Positions 10,525 through 61,360 of a stretch of DNA of 64,000 bases are shown in pieces. Both the position numbers and the translations under genes were made by a program. The notes beneath the pieces are model-generated. The model made no database searches. It saw nothing but the letters and a program-made list of their open reading frames with translations, and was not told the DNA's origin. The stretch is from Spirogloea muscicola (Eukaryota > Streptophyta > Zygnematophyceae > Spirogloeales > Spirogloeaceae): NCBI GenBank assembly GCA_009602725.1, contig WELB01000168.1, positions 156,530 to 220,529 on the forward strand, written 5' to 3'. How positions within the stretch are numbered: position 1 is the stretch's first letter; each line of letters begins with the position of its first letter.

Positions 10525-10950
10525 GAGAGAAGAGCTCGCCCATAGAAGAGAGGGGCTGGCAGAAGCCAGCCAAAAAAGAATGGACAATATCCAAAGAGCT
10601 CCAACACTAGCTAGGCATCTAGACAACTAGACATGACGGAACCACACGAAGTTCAATACCCGCGGGTGAGCAACATCAGGTCAGAGTAGCTCGAGGCTGG
10701 AAAAGATGCAGCCGGGCGAGACCCGGAAGCAGCAACAAGAGCACGGCCCGCGCGCGAGTGGACGGCATGAGCGAGTGAGCGTTGAAGGGACACGGAGAGC
10801 CGCATCCGGAAAACCTGGGCCAGGGAGCCGGCCGCGTTGAAGCCGGGCAGCCCCCCTGGCGGACCCGGCCGCCGCTCCATGGCCTGCCGGGCAAGCCGCT
10901 GGAGGAGATCCAGCCAGCCGCTGCCGTAAGCCCCGTGGACGTCTATGGCA
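10525..10950 (-). mobile_element. 5'-truncated RLE-type LINE: C-terminal domain plus tail A
   Basis: The minus strand reads GFNAAGSLAQVFRMRLSVSL, HSRAGRALVAASGS and finally SYSDLMLLTRGY with the stop near 10653. A 3' UTR and hairpin tail follow (GGCTGGC...GCCAGCC and ATGGGCGAGC, about 10535-10590). The 5' end runs into another tail at about 10951. No catalytic domain remains. Confidence 0.8.
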
Positions 10951-11260
10951 AGGGCTGTGAACAGCCAGCCCGAAAGAATTTGACCAAATAAAGTTACTGA
11001 TGAGGTCCGACGGGGCCAAAAAGCGCTTTCCCAAAAGCTTTCCTGGTAGGGTCATCACTTAGTAACCTCAACTTGAGCCGCAAAGAAGAGCAAATAATTG
11101 TGTAACGCCAACAAGAAAGAGCTCTTATAATGCAGAGGCCGATGGCTGTGGTTGGCCTGCCCAGAAAAAGAATGCAGGCATTGGCTGTGAGAGGCCAGGA
11201 ATGAATAAGCGGTGCGCATGAAAGGGAGGCCAACCGTGCCAGTACACTGTTGTTGAAAGA
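10951..11260 (-). repeat. Cluster of LINE tails E, D and G
   Basis: At 10951-10995 the minus strand shows a GGCTGGC/TGTTCA/CAGCCC hairpin preceded by AATTCTTTC (tail E). At 11140-11205 there are two tail-D hairpins of the TGGCCTCTCACAGCCA type. At 11205-11250 a diverged tail G appears (TTGGCCTCCCTTTCATGC). None carries coding sequence. They look like stacked, extremely short retroposed ends. Confidence 0.6.
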
Positions 11261-11479
11261 ACAAAGCCAGAAGTGAGAGGGGCTAAGATAACAGAACTAA
11301 TTGCAATGGAAGGGGCGCTAGTACCCACTAGCGAGCACAGAGAGAGAAGGCGCGCGGTGCTCAGGAGATGAGAGGGAGGCCACAGTAAGCAAATAGGCCG
11401 TTCAGCGATAAACTAGTGCGGGGCTACACCAGGCGAAGCAGCTTGCCTGGCGTGCAGTAACTCAACGCCAAAGGCCAGA

Positions 11480-12245
11480 CAGGTCAGCAGGCCGGCTTCG
11501 ATGCCGCTGGGTCGCTTGCTCAGGTTTTCGCATGCGGCTGTTAGACTTGCTCAATTCCCAGGCTTTTTCAGTGAGTGTACTTGTGAGGAGGCCGGGCTGC
11601 TGCTTCTGGGTTCGGCTGAGGTTACTTCCGGCGCAAGGTACTCTGACTTGGGGCTGCTGACTAGGCGTAATTCAGCATCCCTCAGTGTAGCCGCTTGTGT
11701 AGCTGTGTTAAGAGCTTTCAGGCCCTTACAGACCCATGACCTAGCTTTTTTGGCTGGCCTTCACAGCCGACGCCCCCGTTTGTAAGACGTTTTCTCGAAG
11801 CCCTATGCTGATGGGGCTGAGGTAACCGTGCGAACGCCGGCTGAAGGAAGGAACGAGAGAAGCTTTCGAACGCGGCCTACCGCAACTCGCCAGCCGCTCT
11901 TCAGCTCGCTCCCCTGCCCGTCAGCCGCGGCGGCGTCGGCTGCCCACTTGCTCGCGCCTGCGAGGCGGCGTGCCTGGGCAGCTGGGCGCAGGTCGCCACT
12001 CACGTCCCCAGCGCTCTGCTGTCGCGCCCTGGAGAAGAGGCGGCAGCTGACGTGGAGACCTCCGCTGCCTTCCCATTCGCTGTAGTCTCTTGCCTATGCT
12101 TCTGTACTTTTGGCGCCTTCCGCTCGAGGCAAGGAGGCAAAAGTTGCTGATCATCCCGTCAGATGACGAATTTTTCCCCCTTGCCATCAGACGTCCAGGG
12201 GTCGCTTGGCGCTCGGCGCGCGGTTGCTCGAGCACCTGCACCGGC
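11480..12245 (+). mobile_element. Decayed LINE C-terminal fragment and unassigned sequence
   Basis: Between 11480 and 11680 the plus strand reads AGFDAAGSLAQVF and, after disruption, YSDLGLLTR, matching the C-terminal domain of the local LINE family. It is older than the 2.4 and 42 kb copies, since the reading frame is broken. From 11700 to 12245 I see no gene. Confidence 0.55.
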
Positions 12246-12850
12246 TCGCAGCGCTATATTGAGTGCTTCGTAGCTGCTTTGTTCTTTCTTATTGTGCTTG
12301 TTTTCCTTATTTTCTTAGCGCTTCCGTCTCGTCCTTTGTTCATTGTTTTCTGGGCTGGCTTTTCCAGCCCCTATCCGCAATGGGCGAGCCCTTCTTATGT
12401 TCTTTGGCTTTGAACATTGTCCATTCTTTTTGGGTTGGCTTTGCCAGCCCCTCTTCTCAATGGGCGAGCACCTTCATTCTTATGTTCCGACGTCACCCAA
12501 GGGGAGCAGGCCGACTTCAACAGGGCAGGCTCGCAATGCACGAGCACTTTCTCTCGCCCTGGTGTATCGCATGAACCTCTGTATTGCTGCAGCGGTCAAT
12601 GGGACACGCGTTGCATCTGCTTGCCGGGCGCGCTTTAGCTGCAGCCTGACTATAAACAGGGGACCCGCTACTAAGAGACTAGTGACTCTGACCTGCGGCT
12701 GCTCAAGTTAGAATATTGAGCACCCCGTGACACTTGAGTCGCTGTGTGCCTTTGGCGCTTTTCTGGCCCCTTCAAACTTTGTTCAATCACATTTCTGGCC
12801 TGGCCAATCACAGCCATCGCCCGCTTCTGGAAGAGTTGTTCCTCTTCTTG
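12246..12850 (+). repeat. Two tandem A tails, decayed C-terminus, and tail D
   Basis: Two tail-A hairpins lie in the same direction at about 12345-12395 and 12415-12470. A decayed C-terminal domain follows at 12500-12715. At 12755-12845 there is a tail-D copy (CTGGCCAATCACAGCCATCG). The order tail, tail, coding end, tail shows repeated insertion in one place. Confidence 0.6.
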
Positions 12851-12959
12851 CACATTCTTGTGTGCTGGTCTTCACAGGCATTGCCTTACCTTTGCAAGAG
12901 CCGCTTTCTTTCTGCTATGAAGTATATGCGGCTGCTAAAAAGTGAATGAGCGGCAATAT

Positions 12960-13320
12960 AAGAAGGTGGCCTTCCAACTGGGCGGGGGCTATGAATAGCC
13001 AGCCCGAAAGAGAGCAGGCCCGCGGTGCGCATGGATGAAAGGGTGGCCGATTCAAGCCAATACATTGATAAGGAAAAAGTTAGTGCGAGGATGGGCTACA
13101 TAAACGGAAGCCCTATGTAAGGTGGCTAAGGTAACAGTGTGACATCAGTACCTACGAGTGAGCTCATACAAATTTGGAGCAGGAGCGCCGGCACAGAAGC
13201 CTGTGGCCTGACGTTAAGCGAGCCCAGCACGCCCGAAAGAAAGTGGCTCTCCCAAAAGGGCGAGGGCTGTGAACAGCTAGCCGGAAAAGATCTGACAAGG
13301 TCCAAAGGGCATGAAAAGCT
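12960..13320 (-). repeat. LINE tails G and E, minus strand
   Basis: The region holds AATAGCCAGCCCGAAAG (12995-13012), a diverged tail G at 13018-13075, and a tail-E hairpin at about 13255-13300 (GGGCTGTGAACAGCTAGCC). No protein domain is visible. From 13320 to 13790 I see nothing that I can identify. Confidence 0.5.
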
Positions 13321-13789
13321 AAGGGGGTTTGCCAACGAGGGCTCGTCACTCTTCCCGATCGGGCAAGAGGGACGGCTCGTCACTGCGACATCAGGCATGC
13401 TTCGCACTAGAAAAGAAGTGAGGTCTTCTCACCCTTGTCAACTCTTTTCATGACCTATGAAGATTTACGGGGGCTGCTGTATAAATTGGTCCTCCCTCAT
13501 CCAGCATCTGGCCCGGCTAGTTGACGTGCGCTGTCGCAGTTGGGGGGGCAGCTTGGGGCACACTACATTCGGCAGTGCTTATGGTAAAAAGAGTGCGGCT
13601 CCCGCTTAATGTGCAGCGCTCTGGTTATTTATCAGCGTGCTGGGCGTGCTCTAAGTCAGGCCCCCAGCTCCCCTGGCGGCGCTCCGGCTCCTCATACTAA
13701 GTAGAAGAAAATTAGCCTCCTCAAATTAGCCTGTCGCATATGTATCTGCTCACCCGTGGGTACTGATGTCTAACTGTTACCTTGCCACC

Positions 13790-14335
13790 TTAGCATGGAC
13801 ACAACAGCATCTTCCAATATAAGGCAGTGGCTGTAAAAGGCCAGCCCAAAAAGAATGTTCAAGGTCCAAAAGTCTGAAAGGCATCAAATTTCACAGAGCT
13901 ATGCAAGAGACTACTGCAAGTAGGAGCTTAGTAACCCTCACTTAACAGCTGCAGTAACTCGCAGCTGGAAGTAACGTACCCCGACGAGACCCAGAAGCAG
14001 CATCCATGGCACGGCCTGCCAGCATAGGTTCAGAAGAAAGTGCGCATGGGGCTTTGATTCATGTAGCCCCACTTTTTCACTAGCTTTTGCCTGAACAATG
14101 TATTGGCATGAGTTGGCCACCCTTTAAATTTTGCGCACCGTGCATCTTGTAGTCTCTTGCATGGCTGTGTACATAGAAGCAGGGCTCGCCCATTTAAGAT
14201 AGGGGCTAGAAAAGCCAGCCCAACAAACGACGAGAAGGGGCCAGGGGAAGGCACAAAAACTAAGAAAAAGAGGCACAATTAGACACTAAGCAGCTACGAT
14301 GCACTCAGTAACCTCTGCTCCTTCGGCGCCTATGG
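13790..14335 (-). repeat. LINE tails D, G and A
   Basis: A tail-D-like hairpin lies at 13825-13860 (GTGGCTGTAAAAGGCCAGCC). A plus-strand tail-G relic is at 14093-14155. A tail-A copy with UTR and coding end is at 14180-14330 on the minus strand, closing with a revcomp of GGTTACTGAGTG. Each is 5'-truncated. Confidence 0.55.
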
Positions 14336-14339
14336 GGCT

Positions 14340-15000
14340 TTCGGCAGCCGCTGGCTGGATCTCCTCCAGCGGCTTGCCCGTCAGGCCATTAACCGGCGGC
14401 CGTGTCTGCCAGGGGGCGCCGCCCGGCTTCAACGCCGCCGGTTCGCTTGCCCAAGTCTATTGCATGCGCCTGGCAGTATCGCTCCAACAAGAAGAAAGTG
14501 CTCGCCCATTGAGGATAGGGGCTGGAAAAGCCAGCCCAAAACAGAATGAACAGAGTAAGACGTCCAACGCTCCCTTGCCCACGCCGTCCACACACGAGCA
14601 GGACGTGCTCTGGCCGTCGCCTCTGGATCTCGGCGGAGTGCTCCTTCCCTGCCACGAGCTACGCCGACCTGATGTTGCTCGCGGGTACTGAGCTTCCCTA
14701 GTGCGTAGTCGTGTTTGGTAGTGTAGTCCTTTAATTGTCACCTTTCTTTGGCTTTGGACATTGTCCATTCTTTTTGGGCTGGCTTTGCCAGCTCTCTTCT
14801 CTATGGGCGAGCTCTGCTCTCCCAGCCACATTTTCGGTAGTCCTCTTTCTTTGGCTTTGGACATTGTCCATTCTTTTTGGGCTGGCTTTGCCAGCCCTTC
14901 TTCTCTATGGGCGAGCATTTCTTTTTCGGCACCTCTTTCTTTGGCTTTGGACATTGTCCAATGTTTTTGGGCTGGCTTTGCTCTATATGGGCTACTGAGT
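14340..15000 (+). repeat. LINE C-terminal scrap and triple tandem A tails
   Basis: 14420-14485 encodes GFNAAGSLAQVYCMRLAVSL on the plus strand, interrupted at about 14490 by a minus-strand tail A (14498-14555). At 14740-15000 three head-to-tail copies share TTTCTTTGGCTTTGGACATT followed by the GGGCTGGCTTTGCCAGC hairpin and ATGGGCGAGC. The third is incomplete. Spacers between copies are short and differ. Confidence 0.75.
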
Positions 15001-15059
15001 GATCCATCCTCCCCCTGTTCTGACATAGCATCTTCACCTTACTTTATAGCTGCTACACG

Positions 15060-15625
15060 CTTGTAGGAAGAAAGTGCTCGCCCATTCTTTTGGGCTGGCC
15101 TTTCCTAGCCACCAGTCAATCTGGCCGGGCTTCCTTCATTGAGGATAGGGGCTGGAAAAGAAGAAGAATGTGCTCGCCCATTGAGAATAGGGGCTGGAAA
15201 TGCCAGCCCAAAAGAGAATAAATTGAGTACGAGAAGGGGGCCAGGGGATGCGCTAAGATAAACAAGCACACAAAGAAACAAAGCAGCTACGAATCACTCA
15301 GTAACCCCTGCTCAGACTTTGTCCATTCTTTTGGGCTGGCCTTTCCCAGCCACCAGTCAATCTGGCCGCGCTTCCTCTGCTAAGCAGCCGCAGATCAGAG
15401 ATGCCCCTCCGATCTTTGTCAATTCTTTTTGGGCTGGCTTTTCGCAGCCCTTGGCCCATTGGGAGTGCCACTTCTCTCTCTTTGGCCATTTGGCCTTTGT
15501 TTGTTTCAAATACACGACAACTTTCCTTTGCAGGAGCTCACTTCCCTGTCCGAAATATGTGAATAGCCAGCCCAGAAAGATTGGACAAGGCCCAGAAGAA
15601 GAAGTGCTCGCCCGTAGCTTATATC
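15060..15625. repeat. Mixed tails C, A and B in both orientations
   Basis: Tail C lies on the plus strand at 15085-15135 and 15318-15385, ending in the CCAGTCAATCTGGCCG motif. Tail A with a coding end is at 15170-15312 on the minus strand. Tail B is at 15410-15470 on the plus strand (GGCTTTTCGCAGCCC, then ATTGGGAGTGCC). A minus-strand relic is at 15555-15615. Pieces are nested so that one interrupts the next. Confidence 0.65.
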
Positions 15626-15639
15626 ACAAAGAAGAAGAG

Positions 15640-17010
15640 ATCGTGTATTAGAAAGAAATGTAGGCCAAATGGCCAGGTACAAAGGCAAGCACATCTAAGA
15701 ATCTACATGTCCTACAGCAGATTGACCCGCTCAATAACCACGGGTCAAAACATAATGGTCACTACTCGATGCATGAATACTAGATGCCAGGAACGGAGCC
15801 CTTCTGCCACCTACTAGAGCTCGCCCAGCTTTCTGGTGCAAGGCACTAGCCTGAGCACGCTGCAAACAGGCCGAAACTCGACGTCGCAAGAGCGACAGAT
15901 ATGCAGCTGGCAAGCCCATCTCAGCCGGAAACACATCTGCGCGTCGAGTGTAGCCTAGATTGGCAATGTTTTGAAGCAGAGTGTGGAAGCGAGGACCCAG
16001 ACAGCCAAAGATGTCGATTGCAGCTGGCAGGAGTTGATCGCATTGGGGGTAATCGGAGTAATGCCGCAGTTTTCTTTGCTGTGCTCCGCTCACTGCGTGC
16101 CCAGCAATGTGTGTTGATGCTGGGCCTTTATATGCCTCCGTAACAACAACGTCGACCAGGGCCCGTGGTCCTCCACCAGGTTGCACGCCCACAATGTCAA
16201 GTGTGCGGCGATGGTGACGTCCCTTGGCGTCCGTAGTGATAGGCATGATATTGTTGACTTCCACGACCGCGCGGTAGCCGGCGTCGCGCATCAAGCCCGC
16301 CAGGGCATCGCGAAGGAGGTTGTGAATGCCCACCACTTCTGGTCCAGTGGGGCATTTCAGCATGTGAGTGGCGAGCACAGCACCCTCTGCACGGAAGCCG
16401 CACTCGCACTGGCGCACCCCAATCAGGCAATTAGGTGGGAGGCCGAGGAAGAGTTGAAGCGATGTCCGAAAGGCCTCGGAGCTGATGCTGAAGGCGTTGG
16501 GCGACGGGGGGAGAGGTGATCCAGTCAGTGGCACCAGGTGTGGCCAGAGAAGTGAGTCTTGCCGAGCTCCTTGGATTGTTCTGAATCTCTGGCAGCCCCC
16601 TCAACCTTCTGCGGCGTTCGTCTTCCACTGCCGTAACCAGTCTGGATTGTGCCCCTCTATCAGAAGCTTGGGCGAGGGTGGAGAATGGCGTGAGTAGGGG
16701 TTGGAGAGAGGGGAAAGAGCTGATGGCCGAGTCGCGGATGCTCCTCAGATCCGCTTGGAAGGGGAAGGAGCCTTCCTCCACATTGCGTACAGGGTCGTGG
16801 AGGCAAGGGAAGCGCATGGGGAGCAGGGAGGCGATCTGGTGCCAGCAGCCCAGGAAGGCTGCTTGCGCCGTCTGCTCCAACGACCGGCAGCCAAGGCCGC
16901 CCATGCGAGTAGGGAGGGAGGCCCTGGCTGCTTTCTTTCTTTGTGTGCTTTGGTTTCTTAGCGCTTCCTCTGGCTTCCTCTGGCCCCCTTCTCGTTCTTT
17001 GTCCATTCTT
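15640..17010 (-). mobile_element. 5'-truncated RLE-type non-LTR retrotransposon (best copy)
   Basis: The minus strand encodes the end of a reverse-transcriptase polyprotein. A post-RT segment (PTRMGGLGCRSLEQTAQAAF, near 16900) is typical of algal LINE-like RT proteins. Next come a zinc knuckle CECGFRAEGAVLATHMLKC (near 16380), an RLE-like core HNLLRDALAGLMRDAG ... LDIVGVQPGGGPRALVDVVV with TEAYK, then HYSDYPQCDQLL and a C-terminal domain ending SDHYVLTRGY (stop at about 15731). The post-RT segment and the zinc/RLE segment lie in different frames, so there is at least one disruption near 16430-16530. The 3' UTR (15640-15730) carries a GGCCAxxTGGCC hairpin (tail F). The RT catalytic domain is absent. 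Family placement in the RLE clade is inferred from the knuckle-plus-D/D-x-K arrangement. Confidence 0.8.
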
Positions 17011-17185
17011 TTTTGGGCTGGCTTGTCCAGCCCCTATCCTCAATGGGCGAGCCCTTTCTTCCTGGAGGGAAGCTGAAGCTGAGGGGAAAGATGAAGAAAG
17101 ATAAAGAAGAGGGGCTGGCAGAAGCCAGCCAGAAAAGAACGTTCAAAGAAGAAAGTGCTCGCCCATTGAGGATTCAAAGGGGGGC
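16930..17185. repeat. Tail A copies flanking the LINE
   Basis: A plus-strand tail A with UTR lies at 16930-17062 (TTAGCGCTTCC ... GGGCTGGCTTGTCCAGCCCC, then AATGGGCGAGC). Minus-strand hairpin relics lie at 17108-17140 and 17155-17175. They sit immediately upstream of the LPA1 start, so its promoter must overlap them or lie in the 110 bp that remain. Confidence 0.65.
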
Positions 17186-40134: not shown

Positions 40135-42010
40135 CTAGGCCAGCCAAGAAGAGAGGCTGACAAGGAAAGAAGAGAGTGACCAAGGAGGGAGGGAGCAACC
40201 TGATGTGCTTGGCAAGCTTAAACCACATATTGGGCCGGCCTGACTTGAGCGAATACGTCACAGCAAGGCAGAGGATGGACGCAGCTCTTCCAGATTGACA
40301 GCAATGGCTGTGAGAGGCCAGATGCCCGCTCAACACAACCTGCCGCCTTGGTTGCAGTATTCGTGTTTCAATTATCACAAGGCTAAGCAGAGCAAGAGTG
40401 TACTTGCAACAAGACCACAGTCGTACATCACCTGCTGCTAAGCTGTGACCCGCTCAGTAACCACGAGTCAGCACATAGAGGTCGCTGACTGATGCCCGAA
40501 ACCGGACGGTGAAGCTCTTGTGCCACCAGCTAAGCCCAACCAACTTCTGGTGCAAAGCATGAGCCTGAGCTCGCTTAAAAGGAGGCGAGGGCTGTGACAA
40601 GCTAGCCAAGCCATTAAAGTGGACAAGCAAAAGAATGCGGCTGCTGATATTTAATAATCGGCTGTGACTGCCAGCCAGATACACACAGGTAATCAGGACG
40701 GAGCCACAGGCTAGGCAGACAGGGCGCCCTCAATACCCCCGTGTCAGCAGTAGGAAGTCAGATGAGCTGAGGGGAGGAAGAGCAACCCCGCTGCGCAAGC
40801 CAGAGGCTGCTGCAAGGGCGCGACCAGCCCAGCGATGCAAAGCAATCGCTTGGGACCATTGTAGGCACATGAACGCATGCGGTAGCAGGACACAAGACCC
40901 AAAGGGTGCGTGTGTTTTAAGAGGTGGAGGGCCATGTGTGGCCGAGTACAAAGGCAAGCAGTTTGACAAATGTACGTCACCTGCTGCTAAGCTGACCCGC
41001 TCAGTAACCACGAGTCAGCACATAGAGGTCGCTAACTGATGCCCGAATACCGGACGGCAAACGACAAGCTCTTGAGCTACCAGCTAAGGCTCGACCAGCT
41101 TTCTAATTCAACGCATGAGCCTGAGCTCGCTGCAGACAAGCTGACACTCGACGACGCAAGAATGACAAGTAGGCTGCCGGCATGCCCATCTGAGCTGGAA
41201 GCACATCCTCACGTCGAGCATATCCCAAACTTGCAATACTCTCCAGTGAGGTGTGTGAGCGAGGGCCCATGCAGCCGAAATTGTCGATTGCGGCCAGGAG
41301 GAGGTGATCGCTGCGGGGATACTCAGAGTAGTGTCGGAGCTTTCTCTGCTCAGCACCTCCACTGCGTGGCCAGCAATGTGCGTGGAAGCGGAACACTTGT
41401 ATGCCTCCGTCACCACCACATCAACCAAGGCTCGTGGGCCTCCGCCAGGTTGTACACCCACAATGTCCAGGGTGCGACGGTGATGGCGTCCCTGGGAATT
41501 CGTGGTGATGGGCACTACATTGCTTACTTCCACAGTAGCGCTGTAGCCGGCGTCACGCATCAGGCCCGCCAGGGCGTCCCGTAGAATATTGTGGACGCCC
41601 ACCACCTCAGGGCCTGTGGAACACCGCAGCACGTGGGTGGCAAGGTCTCCGCACTTCGCACGGAAGCAGCACTCACGCCGAGTTACTCCAATTAGGCAGG
41701 TCGGGGGCAGGCCTAGGCACAGCTGGAGAAGCGTCCGGAATGCTTTGGGGCTGAATTTGAAAGAGTTGTGTATGGGGTGCATGGTGAGCCAGTCCGTTGC
41801 GCCAGGTGTTGCGAGCGATGTGAGTCGTGCCAGAATCCTTGGATTGGTCATGATATCTGGCATCCTCAATGCCATTGCGACGCTCATCCTCAACTGCAGC
41901 CACGAGTCTGGCCTGTGCCCCTTTGTCTGATGCTTGAGCAAGCGCTGAGAAGGGAGTGAAGAGGGTTTGCAGGGAGGGGAAGGAGCGACGTCTTCCCGCC
42001 GGCTAGCTAC
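40135..42010 (-). mobile_element. Stack of 5'-truncated RLE-type LINE copies
   Basis: At least three minus-strand coding ends lie here. A tail-D relic is at 40300-40330. Coding ends stop at about 40454 (SDLYVLTRGY) and 40730 (SDFLLLTRGY). A longer copy at 40985-42010 contains the knuckle region ECCFRAKCGDLATHVLRC, the RLE-like core (HNILRDALAGLMRDAGYSAT; LDIVGVQPGGGPRALVDVVV; TEAYK) and DKGAQARLVAAVEDERR upstream. One zinc-knuckle Cys is replaced by Arg compared with the 16 kb copy. Frames are broken in several places. CTGCTGCTAAGCTGACCCG-type UTR sequence is shared by the stacked ends. Confidence 0.75.
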
Positions 42011-42054
42011 TCAGATTTGCATCTCCTGACTAGAGATTACTGAGCGTTCCCTGG

Positions 42055-42180
42055 CTGATGTCTTAGTCCTAGTCCTTGTCCTTCGCACTCCGGCTCCTTC
42101 AGACCTTGTCCATTTCTTTGGGCTGGCCTTTCCCAGCCACCAGTCAATCTGGCCGCGCTTTCCTCAAGGAGCAGAGTGCT
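42055..42180 (+). repeat. LINE 3' UTR with tail C
   Basis: A plus-strand tail C lies at 42100-42170 (TTTGGGCTGGCCTTTCCCAG, then CCAGTCAATCTGGCCGCGC). It abuts the minus-strand stack on its left and a minus-strand tail A on its right. Confidence 0.65.
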
Positions 42181-42254: not shown

Positions 42255-42745
42255 ACAGAAGGAAGGTGCTCGCCCATTGAGAGAAGGGGCTGGCAAAGCC
42301 AACCCAAAATGAATGGACAATGTTCAAAGCCAAAGAAAGAAGTGCCGAAAAAGAAGAAAGTGCTCGCCCATTGAAAATAGGGGCTGGAACAACCAGCCCG
42401 AAAAAGAATGAACAGAGTACGAGAAGGGGGCCAGGGGAAGCGCTAAGTAACAGAAACAAAGCTGCTACGAGACACTCAGTAACCCCTGCTAAGCAGCCGC
42501 AGATCAGAGATGCTGGGCTCCTGGAAGTGGGTCCCCTGGCCGAAAAAGGACTACACTACAAAGTGCAAGACGGTGCAGAGGGAGATGCAGATGACAGAGG
42601 ATGACAAAGGAAGCGCAAGGGGAGGGGGGAGGCAACCTGGTGCCAGCAACCGAGGAAGGCCGGGAAGGGCTGCACCCTGTTCGCGGCGTTGCTGGGTTGC
42701 TGGTTAGCTTCAGAGGCCAGCAGCGAGAGTAACGAGGACAACCGA
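42255..42745 (-). mobile_element. LINE end interrupted by a 185-bp tail-A insertion with 10-bp TSD
   Basis: A minus-strand tail A (42262-42335) leads into its UTR. At 42354-42538 a second, nearly intact LINE end (tail A plus SDLRLLSRGY coding end) is inserted. GCCGAAAAAG flanks it at 42344-42353 and 42539-42548. The uninterrupted sequence GTGCCGAAAAAGGACTACAC exists at about 52735 in a related copy and acts as an empty site. From 42556 to 42740 there is a further relic (AFLGCWHQVASPLPLRF) of the post-RT segment. Confidence 0.85.
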
Positions 42746-42769: not shown

Positions 42770-42885
42770 ATGGCCAGGAGAGAGAAGGCGCGCGGGGCGC
42801 ATGAAATGAAATGGAGGCCAATCCAAGCCGGTACATTGTCCAGGCAGAGTCTAGGGCTATCTAAACAGGGCTACATAATACAGGG
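42770..42885 (-). repeat. LINE tail G copy
   Basis: Contains GAGAGAAGGCGCGCGGGGCG followed by CATGAAATGAAATGGAGGCC and CAGGCAGAGTCTAGGG. On the minus strand it reads as a 3' end closing with GCGCGCCTTCTCTC. It also occurs at 51540, 53140, 53623 and 60790. It lies about 160 bp upstream of the renalase-like start. Confidence 0.65.
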
Positions 42886-46349: not shown

Positions 46350-47867
<1,518 letters not shown>

Positions 47868-51004: not shown

Positions 51005-51585
51005 GGTTTACGGCAGTGGCTTTGAGAGGCCACCCCCAAAGGGACTTCCGTGTATAAGAAACAAATGTAGGCCAATTGGCCCAGTACAAAGGCAAGCACA
51101 TCTAAAGATCTACATAACCTACAGCAGATTGACCCGCTCAATAACCACGGGTCAAACATAAAGGTCACTAATCGATGCATGAATACTAGATGCCAGAAAC
51201 GGAGCCCTTCTGCCACCAACTAGAGCTCGCCCAGCTTTCTGGTGCAAGGCACTAGCCTGAGCACGCTGCAAACAGGCCGAAACTCGTCGTCGCAAGAGCG
51301 ACAGATATGTAGCTGGCAAGCCCATCTCAGCCGGAAACACATCTGCACGTCGAGTATAGCCTAGATTGGCAATGTTTTGAAGGAGCGCGTGGAAACGAGG
51401 ACCCAGACAACCATAGATGGTCGCATTGGGGGTAATCGGAGTAGTGCCGCAGTTTTCTTTGTTCTGCACCGCTCACTGCATGCCCAGCGATGTGTGTGAT
51501 GCTGGGCGAGGAGCAGCTGCGGGAAGCATCGGCCAAAGGGGGAAAGCGCGCGAAAATGGAGGCCAATTCAAGCCGATGCATTGTT
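51005..51585 (-). mobile_element. 5'-truncated RLE-type LINE (same subfamily as 15.6 kb)
   Basis: The UTR at 51045-51150 and the coding end SDLYV... (51152 up) match the 15.6-16.0 kb copy almost base for base (GCACATCTAAAGATCTACAT, CCCGCTCAATAACCACGGGT). Coding carries GLPATYLSLLRRRVSACLQR. Compared with the older copy, a stretch near 51420 is deleted. A plus-sense tail-D relic (TGGCTTTGAGAGGCCA) lies at 51018. Confidence 0.75.
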
Positions 51586-51800
51586 CAGGCAGAGTCTAGG
51601 GCAGACTAAACAGGGCTACATAATTCGGAGACCTAAACTAAGGTGCCTAAGGTGACATCAGTACCCATGGGTGAGCACAACATACCCGACAAGCTAACTT
51701 GGGGAGCTGGAGCGCCGCCACGAAAGCCGGAGGCCTGACTTAGAGCGCGCCCTGCACGTTGATGAAGAGCCAATGCTTGCGAGCGCTGCAAACTAAAGTG
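51540..51800 (-). repeat. LINE tail G and related UTR
   Basis: Contains AATGGAGGCCAATTCAAGCC and GGCAGAGTCTAGGGCAGAC, then the CTAAGGTGACATCAGTACCC string also seen near 13120-13160. On the minus strand it is a 3' UTR with tail, interrupting the end of the 51.0 kb copy. Confidence 0.55.
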
Positions 51801-52620
51801 AGAGCCGCATTCTATAACATGCGATTAAGGCCTGCGGAATGCTGAAGTGGCCCAAGCTGCCCCCCCGATTTTGACGACGCGCATCAACCAGCCGGGTCAG
51901 ATGCTGGATCAGGGAGGACCATCTTACGCCGTAGCCTCCGTAGATATCCATGGCACACGTATAAAGATGGTCCTCTCGGGGATGGTCTTGGTAGTGCCGC
52001 TCCTTCTTGCGCTCCGCTCTGGACGTGGCCCAGGCAGACACGGTTGACGTGGGTGCGCCAGCCTTGTATGAGTCGATAAGTACCACGTCCAGGAGTAGAC
52101 GAGGCCCACCGCCCCGGGGGATGGCGACCACGTCCAGACGCCGCACGTATGGCTTGCCGTGCCTTGAGGAGATTGGCATGATGCCGGACACCTCCATCGC
52201 CGGATGATACCCCGCCTCTCGCACAAATCCAAACTTAGTGTCCCTGAGTAAGTCGTGGGAGGCAATGCGCTCACCCCCCTCAACACATCTCAGCATATGA
52301 GCAGCTAGATCGGGCTTGTCATCGGCAATGTGGCCACACTCGCACTGGCGGATGCCAACCAAGCAAGAAGAAGCGCGGCCAGATTGACTGGTGGCTGGAA
52401 AAGGGGGGGGGAGGCCGAGATAGTGGTGGAGCGGTATGCGAAATAGGTGCTGTGAGCCGAGGAACTCGTATATCGGCAGAGCGTTTAGCCACTTAGACGC
52501 GCACGGGGAGCTGATGGAAAGGAGCCGGGTGAGGCCACGTCCAACGGGAATAATGGACAAGGCCTGAAAGAGAATGCGGCTTCCGAAATTGAAGTATCGG
52601 CTGTAAAGTGCCAGCCAGAT
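51793..52620 (-). mobile_element. Second RLE-type LINE subfamily with a 36-bp tail-C scrap in its ORF
   Basis: The minus-strand frame of 255 codons carries the zinc knuckle CECGHIADDKPDLAAHMLRC, then HDLLRDTKFGFVREAGYHPA, LDVVAIPRGGGPRLLLDVVL and DSYK, and HYQDHPREDHL. It is clearly related to, but distinct from, the 15.6/41/51 kb subfamily. Just before the knuckle, LGLPP is followed by the foreign PFPATSQSGRASS and then CLVG. This foreign piece is the end of tail C (CCAGTCAATCTGGCCGCGC) read in frame, and it is missing from other copies. Confidence 0.8.
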
Positions 52621-52624
52621 GCAT

Positions 52625-52985
52625 ACATGAAAGAAGAGATAAGGGCTGAAAGAAGAATTGCTCGCCCATAGAGAAGAAGGGCTGGCAAAGCCAGCTCAAA
52701 AAGAATGGACAATGTCCAAAGCCAAAAAAAAGAGGTGCCGAAAAAGGACTACACTACCAAACACGACAACGCACTAGGGAAGCTCAGTACCCTCGAGTGA
52801 GCAACATGAAGTCGGAGTAGCTCGTTGCAGGAAAGGAGGCACTCCGCCGAGACCCAGAGGTAGCGGCCAGAGCATGTCCTGCATGCGTGTGGACGGCGTG
52901 GGCAAGGGATTGTGAAAGGGCCGGATGACGCCAATAACAGTATTCTAGTCTCCAAGACGTCGGCAAGTGGGCTCTCAATATCCTC
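52625..52985 (-). mobile_element. 5'-truncated LINE end with tail A (paralogous empty site)
   Basis: Tail A is at 52650-52720, the UTR at 52720-52795, and the coding end at 52797 upward (SDFMLLTRGY preceded by SGSRRSASFPATSY). Its UTR contains GTGCCGAAAAAGGACTACAC uninterrupted, the same sequence that is split by an insertion at 42.35 kb. Confidence 0.75.
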
Positions 52986-53029
52986 TAGTCACTAAGGAGT
53001 GGGGGGATAGGAAGGCACAGTGTATTAGA

Positions 53030-53192
53030 AAGAAATGTTGGCCAAATGGCCAGGTACAAAGGCAAGCACATCTAAAAATCTACATAACCTACAGCAGATT
53101 GACCCGCTCAATAACCACGGGTCAAAACATAAAGATATAGAGAGAGATGGCGCGCGGGGCGCATGAAATGAAATGGAGGCCAATTCAACCGG
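53030..53192 (-). repeat. LINE tail F and tail G pieces
   Basis: 53035-53135 matches the tail-F UTR of the 15.6 and 51.0 kb copies (GGCCAAATGGCCAGGTACAA; TGACCCGCTCAATAACCACG). 53142-53190 is tail G. Both are truncated and lie directly 5' of the plus-strand copy at 53.2 kb. Confidence 0.65.
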
Positions 53193-54116
53193 CTCCTGGG
53201 ACTACCGCCTCCATGTCTCCAGGGCGTGCGTCAGTGTGTATGCGGCGAGCGAGGGGCCGAGTCTGGGGAGCAGGCCGCTCATGTTCTGCGCTGCGCCCAC
53301 GGCGGCGAGCGTGACAGCGGCCCACGACCGCCTCCGCGATGCGAGGCATGGCATCCTGTTGGAGGCTGGCTTCTCCGTGGCAGCGGAGCACGCCGGCATC
53401 ATGCCGATCCAGGAAAGGGCCGACGGTCTCCACGCCCGGCGTGTAGACCTAGTGGCCACCCCACAGGCCGGCGGGCCACGTCTTCTCCTGGACGTGGTGA
53501 CCATTGATGCCTACGACCGTTCACACCCAGCCCAATGTGCCACCAAGGCTGGGTATGCGGTCGCCTGCGCTGCTCGGGCTGAAGAGCTGAAGTACGCAGA
53601 CCATCCGCGGGAAGAGAGAGAAGGCGCGCGGGGCGCATGAATTGAAAGGGAGGCCAATTCAAGCCAATACATTGGGAAGACGAGTTCTTCCTGTTGGCCT
53701 TTGATACCCATGGGGCGCTGGGCGCTCGGTGGCTCGAGCTGCTCACCCAGCTCGCCCGCCACATCATCGCCCGTCGCTTCCATGGGGAGCCGGTAGACTT
53801 TCCTGCAGCCGGGTCGCTGGCGCAAGTGTATCGAATGCGCCTGGCCGTCTCGCTGCAGAGGTCTATGGCCCGGGCGTTGCACCTTCGTGCCGGCAGAGCC
53901 CTCGCTGCTGCCTCTGGCTCTGGCCAGGGGACCTACCCACTTCAACGAGCTTAGCATCTCCAACCTGCGGCTGCTTAGCAGAGGTTACTGAGTGATTCGT
54001 AGCTGCTTTGTTTCTGTTTCTTAGCGCTTCCCCTGGCCCCCTTCTCGTACTCTGTTCATTCTTTTTCGGGCTGGTGTTTGCAGCCCCTATTCTCAATGGG
54101 CGAGCACTTTCTTCTT
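53193..54116 (+). mobile_element. RLE-type LINE copy carrying a tail-G insertion with 7-bp TSD
   Basis: Plus-strand order: knuckle CVCGERGAESGEQAAHVLRC (near 53230-53290), RLE-like core (LVATPQAGGPRLLLDVVTID), AEELKYADHPRE, then after an interruption DEFFLLAFDTHGALGARWLE, AAGSLAQVYRMRLAVSLQRS, HLRAGRALAAASGS and ISNLRLLSRGY with stop at about 53991. The UTR and tail A follow to 54116. Frames differ between the knuckle, the core and the end, so the copy is defective. The interruption at about 53623-53672 is a tail G flanked by GGGAAGA on both sides; without it KYADHPRE continues directly into DEFFLLAFD. Confidence 0.85.
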
Positions 54117-55139: not shown

Positions 55140-55331
55140 CACTTGGCAGTATTGTCCCAATTGGACAGAATCATATTTGAAACTGTGACATCCCTGGACA
55201 AGTTCATCGAGCAGGCGCGCCAGTCTCCTTGTTTTCTACAAGAAAGACTGGCGCGCCTGCTCGATAAACTTCTCCAGGGATGTCGCTGCTTCAAGTGTGA
55301 TCTTGTCCAACTGGGACAATACTGCCACGTG
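55140..55331. repeat. 87-bp inverted repeat with 18-base loop
   Basis: Arms 55140-55226 and 55245-55331 are reverse complements at 76 of 87 positions by my count. Both arms, each read in its own direction, encode the same peptide type: AVLSQLD, then SLDKFIEQARQS or SLEKFIEQARQS. Transcription in either direction would give a long hairpin RNA. It lies just beyond the fossil LTR fragment; whether it belongs to it is unknown. Confidence 0.85.
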
Positions 55332-55334
55332 GTG

Positions 55335-55630
55335 CGGAAGACCCACCTTGCAGCATTGTGCTTGATCTTGGCGTCCATTTTCTTGCATTCCATCAATACA
55401 AAATACCAAATGAAATTCGCGTACACTCCTCGAAATCATCGCCCCGAAGCTGCGGGGACCGTTGGTACCTCGAAACGGTAGCTACATACATGTAAGGCTA
55501 CCGGCAACGTTGGTACTCCCAAACGAAGGGAACATTACACATGCGCACCTTACCTTTCATGCGCACCGCGCGCCTTTCTCTCTCTTGCAGCCCCTTCAGG
55601 CAGCTGCGATCTACGGCTGCTCACTAGGAG
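55335..55630. other. Spacer with a plus-sense tail-G relic
   Basis: No gene is visible. At 55550-55585 the string CTTTCATGCGCACCGCGCGC followed by CTTTCTCTC is a diverged tail-G end in plus orientation. Confidence 0.4.
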
Positions 55631-55639
55631 ATATTGAGC

Positions 55640-56290
55640 ACCCAGTGGTCAGTTGAGGCACTGTGTGAAGTAGCGCTTTTCTGGCCCCTTCAACTGTTGT
55701 TCAATCTTTTTCTGGGCTGGCCAACCACGGCCATCACCCTTTTGCTGGAAGATTTTTCGCCACTCTGCTGGCGACGAGTTTGTCGCGCTTGCAGTCTCTG
55801 TCCACGGGGCTTTGGGCCCTCGCTGTTTGACCTTACTCCGGCAGCTTGCGCGGCGTGCTGTAATCCGCCGTCAAGGGCAGCAGAGCGAGCAACTCGGTTC
55901 CAACGCTGTCGGGCGCTTGCTCGGGTGGACAGAATGCGCCTTGCCATCTCCCTGCGGCGTTCCTTGGAATTTGCCAAGCACTTAAGCAGCCGCAGGCCAG
56001 AGAATCTGGTAGTCTCTGGGTAGCGGGTCCCCTGTCTACAGCCAGAGGCTGCAGCCAAAGCGCGACCAGCACGCAGCTGAAGCGCGTACGCCATTGAGCA
56101 CTGCAGCGATAATAACAGGCGCATGCATCTCTTGTACCTCCACAGTAGCTCTTGTGATATAAGTTGTGATATAAGCAGCCGCATCCTCCGAAGAACCCCC
56201 GTGGCAGCAACAGGAGTAGCAGCAGGGCTGCAGTGCACTCGCCCGCGCCAGCTCTGCGCCAGTGCCACAGCCTCCTAGCCCGCACTCCTC
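55640..56290 (+). mobile_element. Old LINE end with tail D, upstream of cytidine deaminase
   Basis: Tail D is at 55675-55760 (GGGCTGGCCAACCACGGCCA), similar to 12755-12845. The coding end of another copy follows at 55890-56025 (RCRALARVDRMRLAISLRRS), old and diverged. From 56030 to 56290 the sequence is anonymous and includes the promoter of the deaminase gene. Confidence 0.5.
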
Positions 56291-56304
56291 CGCAGCCAGC
56301 CTCC

Positions 56305-58359
56305 ATGGCAGAGGCCTGCGGCTGGCCGATTGCGGCGGCCCAGGCGGCGGCGGCGTCCGAGGCGCTGGGCCCATGCACGCGGCCAGGCGCAGCCTCTCCC
56401 GCCGGCTGGCCTGGCGAAGCACTGGAATGCCAGGCGACGGTGTTGGCAATGGCGGCAGCTGCGACGGCGCGGGGAAAGGCCATGCTGGCGCGGCGCATCC
56501 GGCGCCGAGAGGCCGTGAAGACGGAGGCTCATGGAGGCCATGGCCACGGCTTGCCCCAGCTGCGGCAATTGGCTCAGCCAGGCCCGTGCCATGTCAGGCA
56601 GCGGCCAAGGCTCGTGTGCCTGGATGATAGGGCCGGCGCACGGAGCAGCTCGGCCGCCACGGCCGACGAGGCTACCGAAGCCTCGGTCGCGGCAGCCGCA
56701 GGCTTCGTTCTGGAGGCGGCCGACGTAGCACGCCTGCGCTCGGCCTTGGATCTCTCAGAAGGTGACGGCAGACGCCACACTGACGATGGCCCTGGCACTT
56801 GCCGGCTGCTGGCCACCAGCATGGGCGATCGCACGAAACTGAAGCCGATGCTGGTGTGGCGCCTCCGCAGAGGAGCTTCTGACCAGCCTGGTGGTGCCGG
56901 TGCGGGCCCTGGCGCTGGCGCCCATCTCCCGCTTCCACGTGGGCGCCGTGGCGCTCGGCGTCAGCGGCCGCGTCTTCGCCGGCGTCAACCTCGAGTTCCC
57001 AGGCCTGCCGCTGCACCACTCGGTGCACGCTGAGCAGTTTCTGGTCGCCAATGCTGCGCAGCACGGCGAGCGGCAGCTCTGCCTGATTGCTGGTAAGAGA
57101 CTGACGTTCTGATTGCTCGACCGACGACCACTGCCAGAATCTCGTTGGCCAATCTTGCGGCTGGGTCTTAGACCGATTCGTCGCGGCGATGCCGCGCCTT
57201 GTTGAGGTGTCAGTGTCGGCGGCGCCCTGCGGCCACTGCCGGCAATTCCTTCAGGAGCTGCGGAAGGCAGGGGAGCTTCCCATCCTCATCGCCGATGGTG
57301 GTGCAGCCGAGGTCAGCATGCTGAAGGACCTGCTGCCTCACCGGTGAGACTCAGTCCTTGACACCATGACGCTTGTGTACTGCTATTGGGACCTCCTTCC
57401 CTGTGGATGCACATCAGCCAGGAAGATCTTACGCTCTCCTTGAAGGCTCAGCATCCCATACTCTTGAATTCCTGACTGCAACCTTGGTGCTGTCTCTGAC
57501 CTTAGGTTCGGGCCTCACGACCTGCTGGAGGACGACTTTCCGCTGCTGCTGGAGCCACAGAGCCACAGCTTGGAGCTCAGTCTGCCGGCTGGCCAGGCGC
57601 TCGGCGGCAACGGCGGGGCAGCCATGCCTGCTGCCCGTGAGAGGCTGTTGCAGGCCGCGCTGATGGCTGCGAGGTCGGCCTACGCGCCTTACAGGTACAT
57701 GCCCCTTCATCTCATTGCCACCATGCTGCCGGCGCGCCAGTGCTCGTGAACTGTAGACTTATTCTTCCTTGTGATGCTGCGGACAGCCTGGAGCCCTGAA
57801 GCCTGGACTCCCCCTGAAGCCTAAACTCTGTAGCCGCAGCAGAGTGCCTGACTCTCAATATAAGGCCCGGTGTGCAGCGGTTGCCCATCTGGGCTTGCGC
57901 TCGTGACCACCAATGGCGCCATCTTCAGTGGGGCGTACATGGAGTCTGCCGCCTACAATCCGAGCCTCTCCCCATTGCAGGTCAATAACGGCCTTCCTTT
58001 TGGCCCTTGTGTACCAATATACCCTGTTGCGTCTGAAACCCCGTACTGTGACTGGCTTTTTTAAAACTCAGTCTTGAGCATTTTACACACAAATCTGGAA
58101 CACCTTCGTGTTGACATGGCAAAATGCAATGCATGACTTCATAACCGTGCGACTGTCCTTGCAGGCTGCGCTGGTAGCGCTGGTATCGCAAGGAAGGACC
58201 CATTACAGCGATATTACAGAGGCAGTCCTGGTAGAAAAGAGCGGTGCCACAGTCGCTCAGGCCGCCTCCGTGCAGCTGGCGCTTGCAAAAATTGCGCCGG
58301 GGGCCATGCTGACCGTGTACCAGACCTCACAGTCGAACGACAGCGCGAGTGGCACCTGA
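56305..58359 (+). CDS. CDA: Cytidine deaminase (plant/bacterial dimeric type) with long N-terminal extension
   Basis: Zinc enzyme that converts (deoxy)cytidine to (deoxy)uridine in pyrimidine salvage. Exons: 56305-56761, 56871-57092, 57214-57343, 57506-57694, 57878-57980 and 58165-58359, all GT-AG and in phase. The catalytic domain starts near residue 140 ([40 protein letters not shown]). Zinc and catalytic motifs are HAEQFLV and [14 protein letters not shown]: the His and two Cys bind zinc, and the Glu after His-Ala is the proton shuttle. The C-terminal broken-repeat domain has [37 protein letters not shown] and [20 protein letters not shown], as in plant CDA1. The first about 115 residues are Ala/Arg-rich without a known domain and may hold a plastid or mitochondrial targeting signal. 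Plant CDA1 has only about 30 residues there. Confidence 0.94.
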
Positions 58360-60410
58360 GCTGGGCCCAACCAGAAGCTGGACAGCACGGCACTGGTGCC
58401 CGGTGATGCCAGGCCGAGCAGGTCAGCAAGGGCGCCGGACGTAACCTAGCTGGTATGTGATGTTTGCCTCTAATGGCAAGCATCACTATGCAACTGGACA
58501 GGACGCTGCGCAAATGGCACAGCACGCCACTTCAGTAAGGCAAAGACAATGTTGAACTATGTATAGCTTGTGCAGACAACGTCCAGGGCCAAATAAATTC
58601 AGACCAAAGGTGGATTGTGCAGAGTAGCCATCATATACAGCAGGAGCCTTTCCTTTGGCGAGTATTGGTGTAGAGTATGCGCAAGCTTATGCTTGCATGC
58701 CCTTTCATTGAGAGGATAGTCTAAGCCTTTTCTTAGGACATTCTTTTATGAATAAAGCCACCTGCAGCAACAACCACATGACAAGGTCGCAGAAGACCAC
58801 CTTCAATAGTGCACTCATCGAAGTTGCCAAGGCCAGATTTATGTGTCATGATGTTGTATGTGTGCTTGCAGGATATGAATTCTAATGTCCCCACCGTAAG
58901 CAATCGTGTGAAGCGACGGCAAGGCAAGCCCGGTGGTTTTGGGTGTGAAACCATGAGGCCACGGTGTGCATCGTCCTTAGAAGGTGCTGCAGAAGGGAGG
59001 CGTTTGCCTATATGTCCTCCAGATGAAGATACTGTATGGTTGGCATCAGAGCATACAGGTGAAGTGAAGCAAGCCTGGCTCTGCCCACCGATTTCCCACA
59101 GAAGCTGGATCCATGTTGGCTTTGTTTCCAAGGGCTGGCGACCTTTCCAAGTGCATTCACATCTTGTCTTGGATAGCCGCCGTTGCTGCCGCAGCTTCTC
59201 GCCTTTCCCAATCGGATCCCACAGCTGGCCCATGTTCCTCTGCATTGGACGAGTGACCTACTCCGTCTAGGCGGTACAAGACACGGATCGGCTCATGGCG
59301 GCAGACGCAAATCACACTACAAGCGGCTCAGCCTGCACCCATGCTGCAGCCATGGCTAGGGCATGGGAGCAGGCACAGTCGGCTGCAGTGGGGAATTTGT
59401 CCAATGTGAACCACATTCCACAGGGAGTGCTCCGACGGCTCCCTGGGCTTAATCAGATGATGTCTCAAGCCCGACTCGCTGACTCACCACATCATCATAA
59501 TGACCAAAAATGTGTAACGGGCTGGTGGACTATGTACGAATAGAAGTGCCGTGATACACACGCAACTCAGGCTCGTAAGTATCAGGTCGGTCTGCTTGCA
59601 CACTTAAGTACACTTAAGTACAAGCATTATCAGTGCCAGTGCCATCGTAACCTCAGTCCCGAGGCTGTTGACAACATAGCTTGGGGACTTACAGCGGATT
59701 GCTCGAAGCTACTACACGGTTATGCAGTAATACCAGCACAATCGAGCTCATGTGTGGAGCATTGCACCTGTGCTTAGCCAAGGACGTCGTGCAGGACTCC
59801 CTACTTGCCAAGTAGTCTCAATATATCATACAAGAACAATAAAGAGAGGCGTATAGGCGTAAATAGTAAGAGAGGCTCCACAGCTGCCCAAGCAGAAGGA
59901 GCCAGCCGTAGCGCGTACATTGTAAGACTTGCTTGCCCCAACGAAGCCATGCCCTGTAAGGACCCAGAGCCTGTCGAACGCCTACCCAAGCCTGTGGGAG
60001 GATCTTTACTCGTCTCAATGATGGGAGAATGGAAGTACCGGTTGCCGAAAGTTCAGGCTCTGCCTCAGGCTCTGCCTCAAACGTTGTGCTAAGTTGTATT
60101 AGGCAGCCGATGGTGGTTCGACAAGATATGCTCTGTGCACAATAACAGCATTCACAGCAAGTCCCCTGCACAACGCGTGCAGATTCATGCGTGCGTGCAG
60201 GTTTATCAGGTATATCATATCTAAGCTATTGCTTGCAGTAGCAGATCCCGAGGTTCAAGGGAAGGCCTACATATCACTGTCTTGTGTAGTTTAAGTTAGT
60301 TGCAAGCAGTAGACCCGCTAACTGGAGCTTCAAAAGGTAAGGTGTGGACGTGGGCTGCCAGGTGCTTCGTTCAGTTTCTTCTATATCACGGCAAGGCAAG
60401 TATAGGATCA
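58360..60410. other. Region without a recognised gene
   Basis: After the deaminase 3' UTR I find no known domain. A 153-codon plus-strand frame at 58809-59270 and an 82-codon frame at 59295-59543 have mixed composition and no splice-supported extension. A near-tandem ACTTAAGTAC duplication occurs at 59600-59625. A TATATCATACAAG string recurs near 59822 and 60210 in opposite senses. Confidence 0.35.
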
Positions 60411-60414
60411 GCTC

Positions 60415-60495
60415 TTCCAATGTCAAGCAATGGCTGTGAGAGGCCAGCCCAAGAAGGGAGGGTCGGAAGGTGCAAAAACAACGAAACATCCAAGC
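60415..60495 (-). repeat. LINE tail D copy
   Basis: The minus strand shows CTTGGGCTGGCCTCTCACAG followed by CCATTGC, a clean tail-D hairpin, with no coding end attached. Confidence 0.55.
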
Positions 60496-60784
60496 AAATA
60501 AATTGGCACTGATTGTGAATGAGCGTCGTACATCCGACTGGCGTCACAAGCAGGCATGCAGGTGGAGAAACATGGCGATTTGTGGCGATGGGGGCTCAGA
60601 GGGAGCGGGCGGCCCGGTGCAGGGCTCTGCTGGCGCTGAACTCGCCTGTCGCCGCATGGCGGGCAACCTACACCAGCGAGGGTGAAGGCGCGCTCGCACG
60701 CGGGGGGGGGGGAGGGGGGTGGGCGACGGTGAGACGGGCCACAGCCGGGCGCGGGGCTCAGGCGGGGCCGGGTGGACCGTTGCC

Positions 60785-61130
60785 GCTTGAAGAGAGAAGG
60801 CGCGCGGGGCGCATGAATTGAAAGGGAGGCCAATTCAAGCCAATACATTGTTCAGGCAGAGTCGAGTGCAGACTAAACAATGCTACATAATACGGAGACC
60901 TTGAAGAAGGAAGTGCTCGGCCTTTGAGGATAGGGGCTGGAAAAGCGAGCCCAACAAAGAATGAACAGAGTACGAGAAGGGGGCCAGGGGAAGCGCTAAG
61001 AAAAACAAGCACACAAAGAAACAAAGCAGCTACGAGTCACTCAGTAACCCCTGCTAAGCAGCCGCAGATCAGAGATGCTAGGCTCCTGGAAGTGGGTCCT
61101 TGGCCAGAGCCAGAGGCTTGAAGACATAAA
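60785..61130 (-). mobile_element. LINE tail G next to a tail-A copy with coding end
   Basis: Tail G is at 60790-60900 and is nearly identical to the 53.62 kb insert plus its UTR. At 60908-61120 a minus-strand tail A, UTR and coding end (LLSRGY class; AGAGATGCTAGGCTCCTGG on plus) follow. The 60.9 kb copy matches the 2.4 and 42.4 kb copies closely apart from an insertion of AAAACAAGCACACAAAG type in the UTR. Confidence 0.7.
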
Positions 61131-61284
61131 AAGAATCAACTCTTCAATTTTTTCTAAGAAGCGAGACTCTTCCGCTTCGCTTCGCTTTCTAGCCCCGCCT
61201 TTTGCCCTTCAGTCTGTTGGCTCCGCTTGGCGTCCCTTACACGAGCACCGGGCGCGCCTACTCCCCGCTCCACCGCTCTTAGGC

Positions 61285-61360
61285 CCCTCTGAACCTTTGT
61301 GAATTCTTTTTGGGCTGGCTTTTCGCAGCCCTTGCCCCCATTGGGAGTGCCTACTGGTGC
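61285..61360 (+). repeat. LINE tail B copy
   Basis: Reads TGAATTCTTTTTGGGCTGGC then TTTTCGCAGCCC and CATTGGGAGTGCC, matching 15410-15470. No coding end is attached. Confidence 0.65.

Follow-up and report, generated by a model that had tools for sequence, protein, structure and literature searches.

Lineage-specific 3′ tails and probable tail exchange among restriction-like-endonuclease LINEs of Spirogloea muscicola

Do LINEs (long interspersed elements) diversify by exchanging their 3′ tails while the coding body is kept, or do different tails simply mark different lineages? This question is raised by a 64-kb stretch of the Spirogloea muscicola genome (C168:156530-220529, here called the window; the host genome comprises 153 Mb in 471 contigs), in which a sequence-only reading had noticed coding ends of the form L-(L/T)-(T/S)-R-G-Y-stop that are followed by differing short tails. 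Motif counts and C-termini bear this observation out. The pattern GGGCTGG-loop-CAGCC occurs 24 times in the window, against a mean of 0.23 and a maximum of 2 in 30 dinucleotide shuffles; ATGGGCGAGC occurs 16 times (mean 0.13, maximum 1), CATTCTTTTT 11 times (0.07 and 1) and GTCAATCTGGCC four times (0.03 and 1), and CCCGCGCGCC(A/T)TCTCTC and GGCCTCTCACAGCC, found four and three times, are absent from the shuffles; the tail motifs thus lie about 100-fold above the shuffled counts. About 15 of the 18 R(G/A)Y* frames are element C-termini, as judged by eye from the 3′ untranslated region (UTR), and those at 52975 and 32494 were discarded on the same ground. References from nine lineages and one chimera located 31 element 3′ ends, and 10,109 bases (15.8% of the window) match the lineage references, a set in which classes B, D and E are without a full reference. 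Our explanation, i.e. sister lineages with lineage-specific tails, exchange between them and an origin of the exchanges by template switching, appears likely, and this grading applies to all of it together; tails would then have been exchanged between lineages, and the products amplified, at least once and very probably twice.

What kind of elements are these? The longest stop-to-stop frames reach 1,406 codons in lineage A2, 1,348 in A1, 1,313 in F1 and 1,267 in F2, and the sequences of H, G and C start near the reverse transcriptase (RT) domain and not at the start of the open reading frame (ORF). The single ORF has the order N-terminal zinc fingers, RVT_1, CCHC, restriction-like endonuclease (RLE) motif and C-terminus. 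The CxxC...H...C fingers near the N-terminus were recognized by eye, with one weak zf-C2HC_2 match below the cut-off; RVT_1 was found in three of three proteins (E 2e-13 to 1e-18). All seven aligned proteins carry, by eye and with no Pfam model match, CxC-x(11-12)-H-x3-C followed by R-x-x-D-x14-D, the latter of which we take to be the RLE motif, and the aligned elements end in SD-x-x-x-L-(T/S)-R-G-Y. An endonuclease of the apurinic/apyrimidinic (APE) family was not detected in the three proteins, two of which span most of the ORF, at E values up to 1. When a profile of seven RT-to-end proteins was compared with solved structures, R2 was the best match (E 1.6e-11), above LINE-1 ORF2p; a single-sequence search of PDB gave no match up to E = 1, and Pfam searches with window fragments gave weak or unrelated matches only, with the exception of a glutaredoxin match. 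With an RT, the CCHC and RLE motifs, no detected APE, and the signature of target-primed reverse transcription (a fixed 3′ end, 5′ truncation and target-site duplication), the elements are RLE-type retrotransposons without long terminal repeats (LTRs). They do not form one LINE family, as had been assumed from the sequence alone: RT-to-end proteins are 43-89% identical across lineages, and the A/C, F, G and H bodies have just 43-59% of these residues in common. The elements thus divide into sister lineages within one LINE superfamily, namely A1, A2, C, F1, F2, G and H, along with others that have decayed. Likewise, the pattern of seven tail classes proved real but incomplete, as an eighth class, H (GGCTGGCATTTCACAGCCGATTC...CAGCAGCCGC), was missing from it. 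Classes A, C, F and G are linked to long open frames, class F comprising two related lineages, F1 and F2, with 82% identical proteins. Class B was seen only behind decayed C-termini, and classes D and E were not linked to intact coding in the sequences examined; the hairpin pattern is common to classes B and E.

Do the tail classes follow the RT lineages? In a tree of nine RT-to-end proteins, A1, A1b and A2 group together (91/91) and have class A tails, C1 and C2 (100/99) have class C, and F1 and F2 (100/100) have class F, while classes G and H are represented by one row each. The five tail groups require four changes on this tree, which is the minimum and was reached by 6 of 200 label shuffles. 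In genome searches with element C-terminal parts, each query yielded between 5,720 and 19,130 candidates at first look, and from these, 135 to 152 matches were listed. Coding ends of at least 40 codons were counted in sequences chosen by such queries, which biases the sample; 81 of 101 have the tail class of their own lineage (F1 35, A2 16, C 14, A1 6, F2 4, H 4, G 2), 14 have no recognized class, and six have another one. Four of these six are C ends with class A tails; the other two, F1 with H and F2 with C, were set aside as nested or chance. Further seeming mismatches of body and tail (L065, L071, L075 minus, L035, L047 plus and minus, L040, window position 40457, and L034 at 73) were discarded because they go back to chance matches some 9-13 nt long, to nested insertions, to slips in scoring or to B-like or F-like ends that have decayed. 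A stop followed by the class D hairpin occurs at 121 places in the genome, and one of these coincides with a C-lineage C-terminus (C8:1087166), but this is no evidence of a swap, because the C2 hairpin is one base off the D hairpin. As the tail classes follow the lineages on the RT tree, most tail diversity is ordinary divergence, and the sequence-only claim that the family diversifies by exchanging 3′ hairpins is overstated; what stands of it is exchange in propagated subfamilies, strong in one (here called A1c) and likely in a second (Cx), which together with single chimeras are the exceptions to the mapping of tails onto RT lineages.

The A1c subfamily combines an A1 body with an A2 tail. 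Two copies, L034 and L051, were read on different contigs; like the chimera L100, they were identified by reading and not by the mismatch script. Their last 120 nt of coding are 89-96% identical to A1 and 64-69% to A2, and about eight nt of A1 leader are followed by an A2 tail, which in L034 (the ending of which has changed to RCY) agrees with the A2 copy L098 at 69 of 70 positions and with A1 at 54 of 69. At informative sites, which here and for Cx were counted in ungapped columns only, the ratio of A1 to A2 is 70:2 in the coding part of L051 and 0:21 in the tail of L034 (Fisher 7e-19). The junction string occurs at 113 places in the genome with up to two mismatches, 66 of them exact, and its backwards control at none. 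Four junctions (on C14, C219, C220 and C330) lie 299, 299, 293 and 299 nt past A1 endonuclease matches on the same strand, which fits A1 bodies. On these sequence comparisons, there is a strong case that the A1 lineage took over an A2 tail and then multiplied to about a hundred copies.

In the Cx subfamily, a C body carries an A2-like tail. We read 20 C-lineage ends out of 150 matches listed: 13 have class C tails (L076, L080, L083, L085-L092, L094 and L095), three have an A2-like class A tail (L078, L079 and L081, the latter inside L096), and of the rest, L077 is a lone chimera of C and A1, L082 is N, and both L084 and L093 run into other sequence. L075 is a fourth C-lineage copy with a class A tail. 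The four Cx copies agree in having C coding, then a C-type leader of 32 nt and finally an A2-like tail of about 100 nt. In L096, the coding part is over 347 nt 89% identical to the C copy L091 and 69% to A2, and the tail is over 97 nt 91% identical to the A2 copy at window position 52784; ungapped sites divide between C and A2 as 82:14 in coding, 3:0 in the leader and 5:31 in the rest of the tail (Fisher 2e-14; 2e-11, 2e-11 and 1e-9 for the other three copies). The Cx junction was found at 42 genome places (control 0), six of which directly follow C-terminus matches (C6, C39, C46, C48 and two on C112), including three in copies that were read. On coding sequence, Cx forms a clade (97/99 and 96/97) within a C group. 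It is therefore likely, as judged from these comparisons, that the C lineage took over an A2-like tail and then multiplied to tens of copies.

How could such combinations arise? Three single chimeras with A1 tails suggest template switching during target-primed reverse transcription. In L108, A2 coding and an A2 leader of 42 nt precede an A1 tail, and in L077, C coding and a C leader of about 55 nt do so; L100 joins an A2 leader to the final codons and the tail of A1, the stretch stopping within the class A end. Each of these junctions occurs once in the sequences examined. Mechanistically, target-primed reverse transcription would start on one RNA's tail, and the RT would then jump to the 3′ UTR of another RNA, creating a new body-tail pair with its junction in the leader, about 8 nt (A1c) or about 32 nt (Cx) after the stop. 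The new pair would persist if some RT in the cell accepts its tail, be it the RT of the body itself or that of A2 acting in trans. Template jumping is known for the R2 RT (PMC2718515, PMC8857657), and the exchangeability of L1 parts has been tested functionally with human-mouse chimeras (PMC3091869).

What alternatives exist for template switching as the origin of the chimeras? One is that copies already integrated recombined at the DNA level or underwent gene conversion. The dense and often nested arrangement of the elements favors conversion, and recombination of a cockroach R2-like element has been ascribed to integrated copies (PMC7650587). However, the tails of L077 and L108 end in a pyrimidine tract and continue into sequence unlike the rest of their host's tail, as would be expected of one insertion event, and in both propagated chimeras the junction lies just after the stop. 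DNA recombination thus seems possible but rather unlikely. The other alternative is that there was ordinary divergence only, and that all mismatches of body and tail are nested insertions, chance matches or retained ancestral tails. The RT tree, the own-lineage tails at most coding ends and the several mismatches that dissolved on inspection agree with it, and so do the coding-tree tests for Cx given below. Further observations weigh against our explanation. The tail-on-RT tree is small, with nine rows and 6 of 200 shuffles that do as well; only two A1c copies were read, one of which (L051) breaks off after the hairpin, without a 3′ end; approximately unbiased (AU) tests on 165 or 348 coding columns did not reject groupings compatible with tail retention in Cx (p 0.105, 0.119 and 0.064), and when the short tails were tested likewise, a grouping of Cx with C was not rejected either (p 0.415); and a chimera with an intact full-length ORF was not seen among the copies read. 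Finally, covariation is absent from the class A stem: in a fixed-structure count on 63 class A cores, 88.4% of cells are paired with one both-sided change, and 476 and 469 of 500 shuffles reach the paired and the both-sided count, respectively. The compensatory changes expected of a conserved stem were thus not found, and because of this, the class A structure is only a proposal. Divergence alone is nonetheless improbable: it is already contradicted for A1c, with its near-identical A2 tail behind clearly A1-like coding and its 113 junction places, unless the two bodies read are misassembled, and in Cx coding and leader follow C where the rest of the tail follows A2.

The tails of all classes have the order leader after the stop, hairpin, class-specific end and pyrimidine tract. 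The hairpins are GGGCTGG...CCAGCCC in A, GGGCTGGCC...CCAGCC in C, GGCTGGCATTTCACAGCC in H, TGGCCATTTGGCC in F1 and GGCTTGAATTGGCC in G. The class A end ATGGGCGA can pair with the upstream TTGTCCAT, thereby closing a longer stem, and folding z-scores are -4.0 to -6.3 for three class A sequences and -0.5 to -2.3 for seven others; RNAalifold did not recover the hairpin on class A cores. Past the class end, about 6-9 positions are mostly 0.85-1.0 pyrimidine in all five groups (copies: H 7, G 21, F 53, C with Cx 53, A 68), with lower fractions at the first one to three positions in F and H and a return to about background (0.49) by position 12 or so. Where the empty site can be reconstructed, this tract is part of the insertion: in L055, two copies of CTGCCAGAGATT flank an insert that ends in GGGCGAGCACTTT, and L037 contains an insert of 28 nt, CTCC-ATGGGCGAGC-ACTTTCTTCTTCTT, which has four extra bases at the left and is flanked by copies of CTTAGCAGGGGT. 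Among 30 nested insertions proposed by a script, about a dozen were judged clean, with duplications about 5-12 bp long and insertion sites that differ. On the reverse strand of L069 (about 4,230), an A2 C-terminus contains a class B tail that has no coding sequence, with ACTCGTG on both flanks and the 3′ end GAGAGCC-ACTTCTTCT. In the first 560 bases of L059, a long (CT)n array immediately precedes the start of a C-lineage 3′ end, a hint that elements may insert into pyrimidine microsatellites.

Tails without coding are most likely strongly 5′-truncated LINEs, down to 28 nt in length and often nested in each other. That they are instead SINEs (short interspersed elements) borrowing LINE tails, as known for Chlamydomonas SINEs with tails common to RandI/Dualen and L1 LINEs (PMC3747384), would agree with the short matches (<300 nt) of 26 of the 31 window 3′ ends, but is very improbable, as the homology lengths spread from 26 nt upward with neither a common 5′ head nor a fixed length (promoters and tRNA-like heads were not searched for), the length clusters at 249-252, 271, 285 and 310 nt being an artefact of the stretch lengths taken.

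How are these 3′ ends arranged in the window? At its left, an A1-lineage stop (2497-2499) with class A tail lies at 2383-2499 (minus strand), 190 nt from the 3′ end matching A1 at 100%, and an A2-lineage C-terminus (stop 10653-10655) with class A tail at 10534-10972 (minus). Class A tails without coding follow at 12257-12396 (plus; A1b-type, 3′ end 12389) and 12400-12469 (plus; A2/Cx-type, 70 nt, 91%). An A1b-type tail with a stop near 14305 (14184-14325, minus) precedes a class A tail-only insertion nested in an A2 copy (14490-14566, minus; short flanking duplication of about 6-7 bp) and an A2 copy at 14563-14812 (plus; stop ending at 14691, class A tail to 14812). Next are an A2/Cx-type class A tail (14834-14916, plus; 84 nt, 92%) and a class C tail (15082-15130, plus), both without coding, and an A1b-type tail with an RGY stop near 15298 (15172-15316, minus), which hosts a nested class C tail, the tail-only insertion at 15312-15371 (plus; duplication AGCAG(A/G)GG). 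A class B tail (15421-15469, plus) is followed by an F1 copy at 15642-16927 (minus), with endonuclease and C-terminus at 15734-16600, its stop at 15731-15733 and the class F tail to 15642; nested in this copy is an A1b-type tail (16974-17052, plus; duplication CCAGG).

A second series begins with an H copy (40637-40905, minus; stop 40730-40732, class H tail) and an F2 copy (40909-41991, minus; stop 41001-41003, class F tail; 1083 nt, 89%), in which a class C 3′ end is nested (41997-42158, plus; duplication GCTCCTT). An A1 C-terminus with class A tail (42362-42541, minus; stop 42476-42478) and a class G tail (42788-42881, minus) follow. At 46353-47069 (minus), the frame with the glutaredoxin match (Pfam E 5e-6) is probably a host gene exon amid the repeats. 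Further on, there are an F1-like 3′ part with class F tail (51049-51507, minus), a G-lineage endonuclease with C-terminus (51554-52367, minus), an A2 C-terminus with class A tail (52660-52915, minus; stop 52784-52786), which among the A2 tails compared is the closest to the Cx chimeras, an F1 stop with class F tail (53019-53134, minus; stop 53108-53110), and an A1 endonuclease in a broken frame (53167-54105, plus), with its stop ending at 53991, a class A tail and a nested class G tail at about 53624. The right part holds a class D hairpin (60428-60450, minus), a class G tail (60800-60901, minus; 102 nt, 100%), an A1 stop with class A tail (60915-61106, minus; stop 61041-61043) and a class B tail (61302-61351, plus). 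Elsewhere in the genome, C20:1131099-1135692 and C338:9612-14205 share an identical pair of opposed A1 matches (frames of 283 and 1350 amino acids, with 4,279 bases between), which reflects either duplication of the segment or assembly of a second haplotype. The loci from a first whole-genome RVT_1 search were set aside as LTR-type polyproteins; ten of them (L001-L010) have an identical 1,003-codon end in the stretches read, and a recently active LTR element is thus also present.

How strictly the RT of a LINE chooses its RNA is a long-standing question. Here, one genome holds parental lineages together with natural, sharp-junction body-tail swaps that multiplied, and if confirmed, these would be ready-made substrates to ask if an RT keeps to its own tail or also takes that of another element; 3′ tails alone would then be unfit for classifying LINE or SINE families. 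It is conceivable, if doubtful, that the A2-type tail serves as a common currency, in that the enzyme of A2, or a tolerant RT of A1, A2 and C, accepts this tail and thereby amplifies template-switched bodies. If so, the elements would share or compete for replication machinery via their tails, and LINE lineages would be recombining modules rather than clonal lines.

How do these elements compare with known systems? A limited search by title and start of abstract found no description of LINE tail exchange in green algae, which is weak evidence of absence; a comparative Chlamydomonas genome study names L1 and Dualen LINEs (PMC8226300). RandI/Dualen and SINEX of Chlamydomonas likewise have algal LINE tails common to several elements and non-poly(A) 3′ repeats (PMC3747384), but the tail-sharing partners are LINE bodies here and not SINEs, and Dualen encodes both APE and RLE (PMC4640811), a combination not found in the three proteins searched for APE at E up to 1. 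RLE LINEs of the NeSL/HERO type (Utopia, Togen and others) are similar in domain order; HERO has non-specific and microsatellite-targeting families (PMC4640811), and the U2 target was not seen in the nested sites read. As in stringent-type 3′ recognition (UnaL2, SART1, R2 3′ UTR), a conserved 3′ stem-loop is followed by a short repeat (PMC3747384), the stem here being backed by folding energy in class A only and not by covariation. R2-like elements agree with those of the window in 5′ truncation and in the layout of their one ORF (zinc fingers at the N-terminus, RT, CCHC and RLE motif), but in contrast to the 28S rRNA site of R2, no single target emerged among the nested sites read, and insertions occur at many sites, often in other elements (rDNA was not examined). 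BLAG elements are, like those described here, recombining and not site-specific, with the difference that in BLAG the recombination affects the 5′ end and the zinc fingers (PMC7650587), whereas in the Spirogloea elements it is the 3′ tail that appears to be exchanged.

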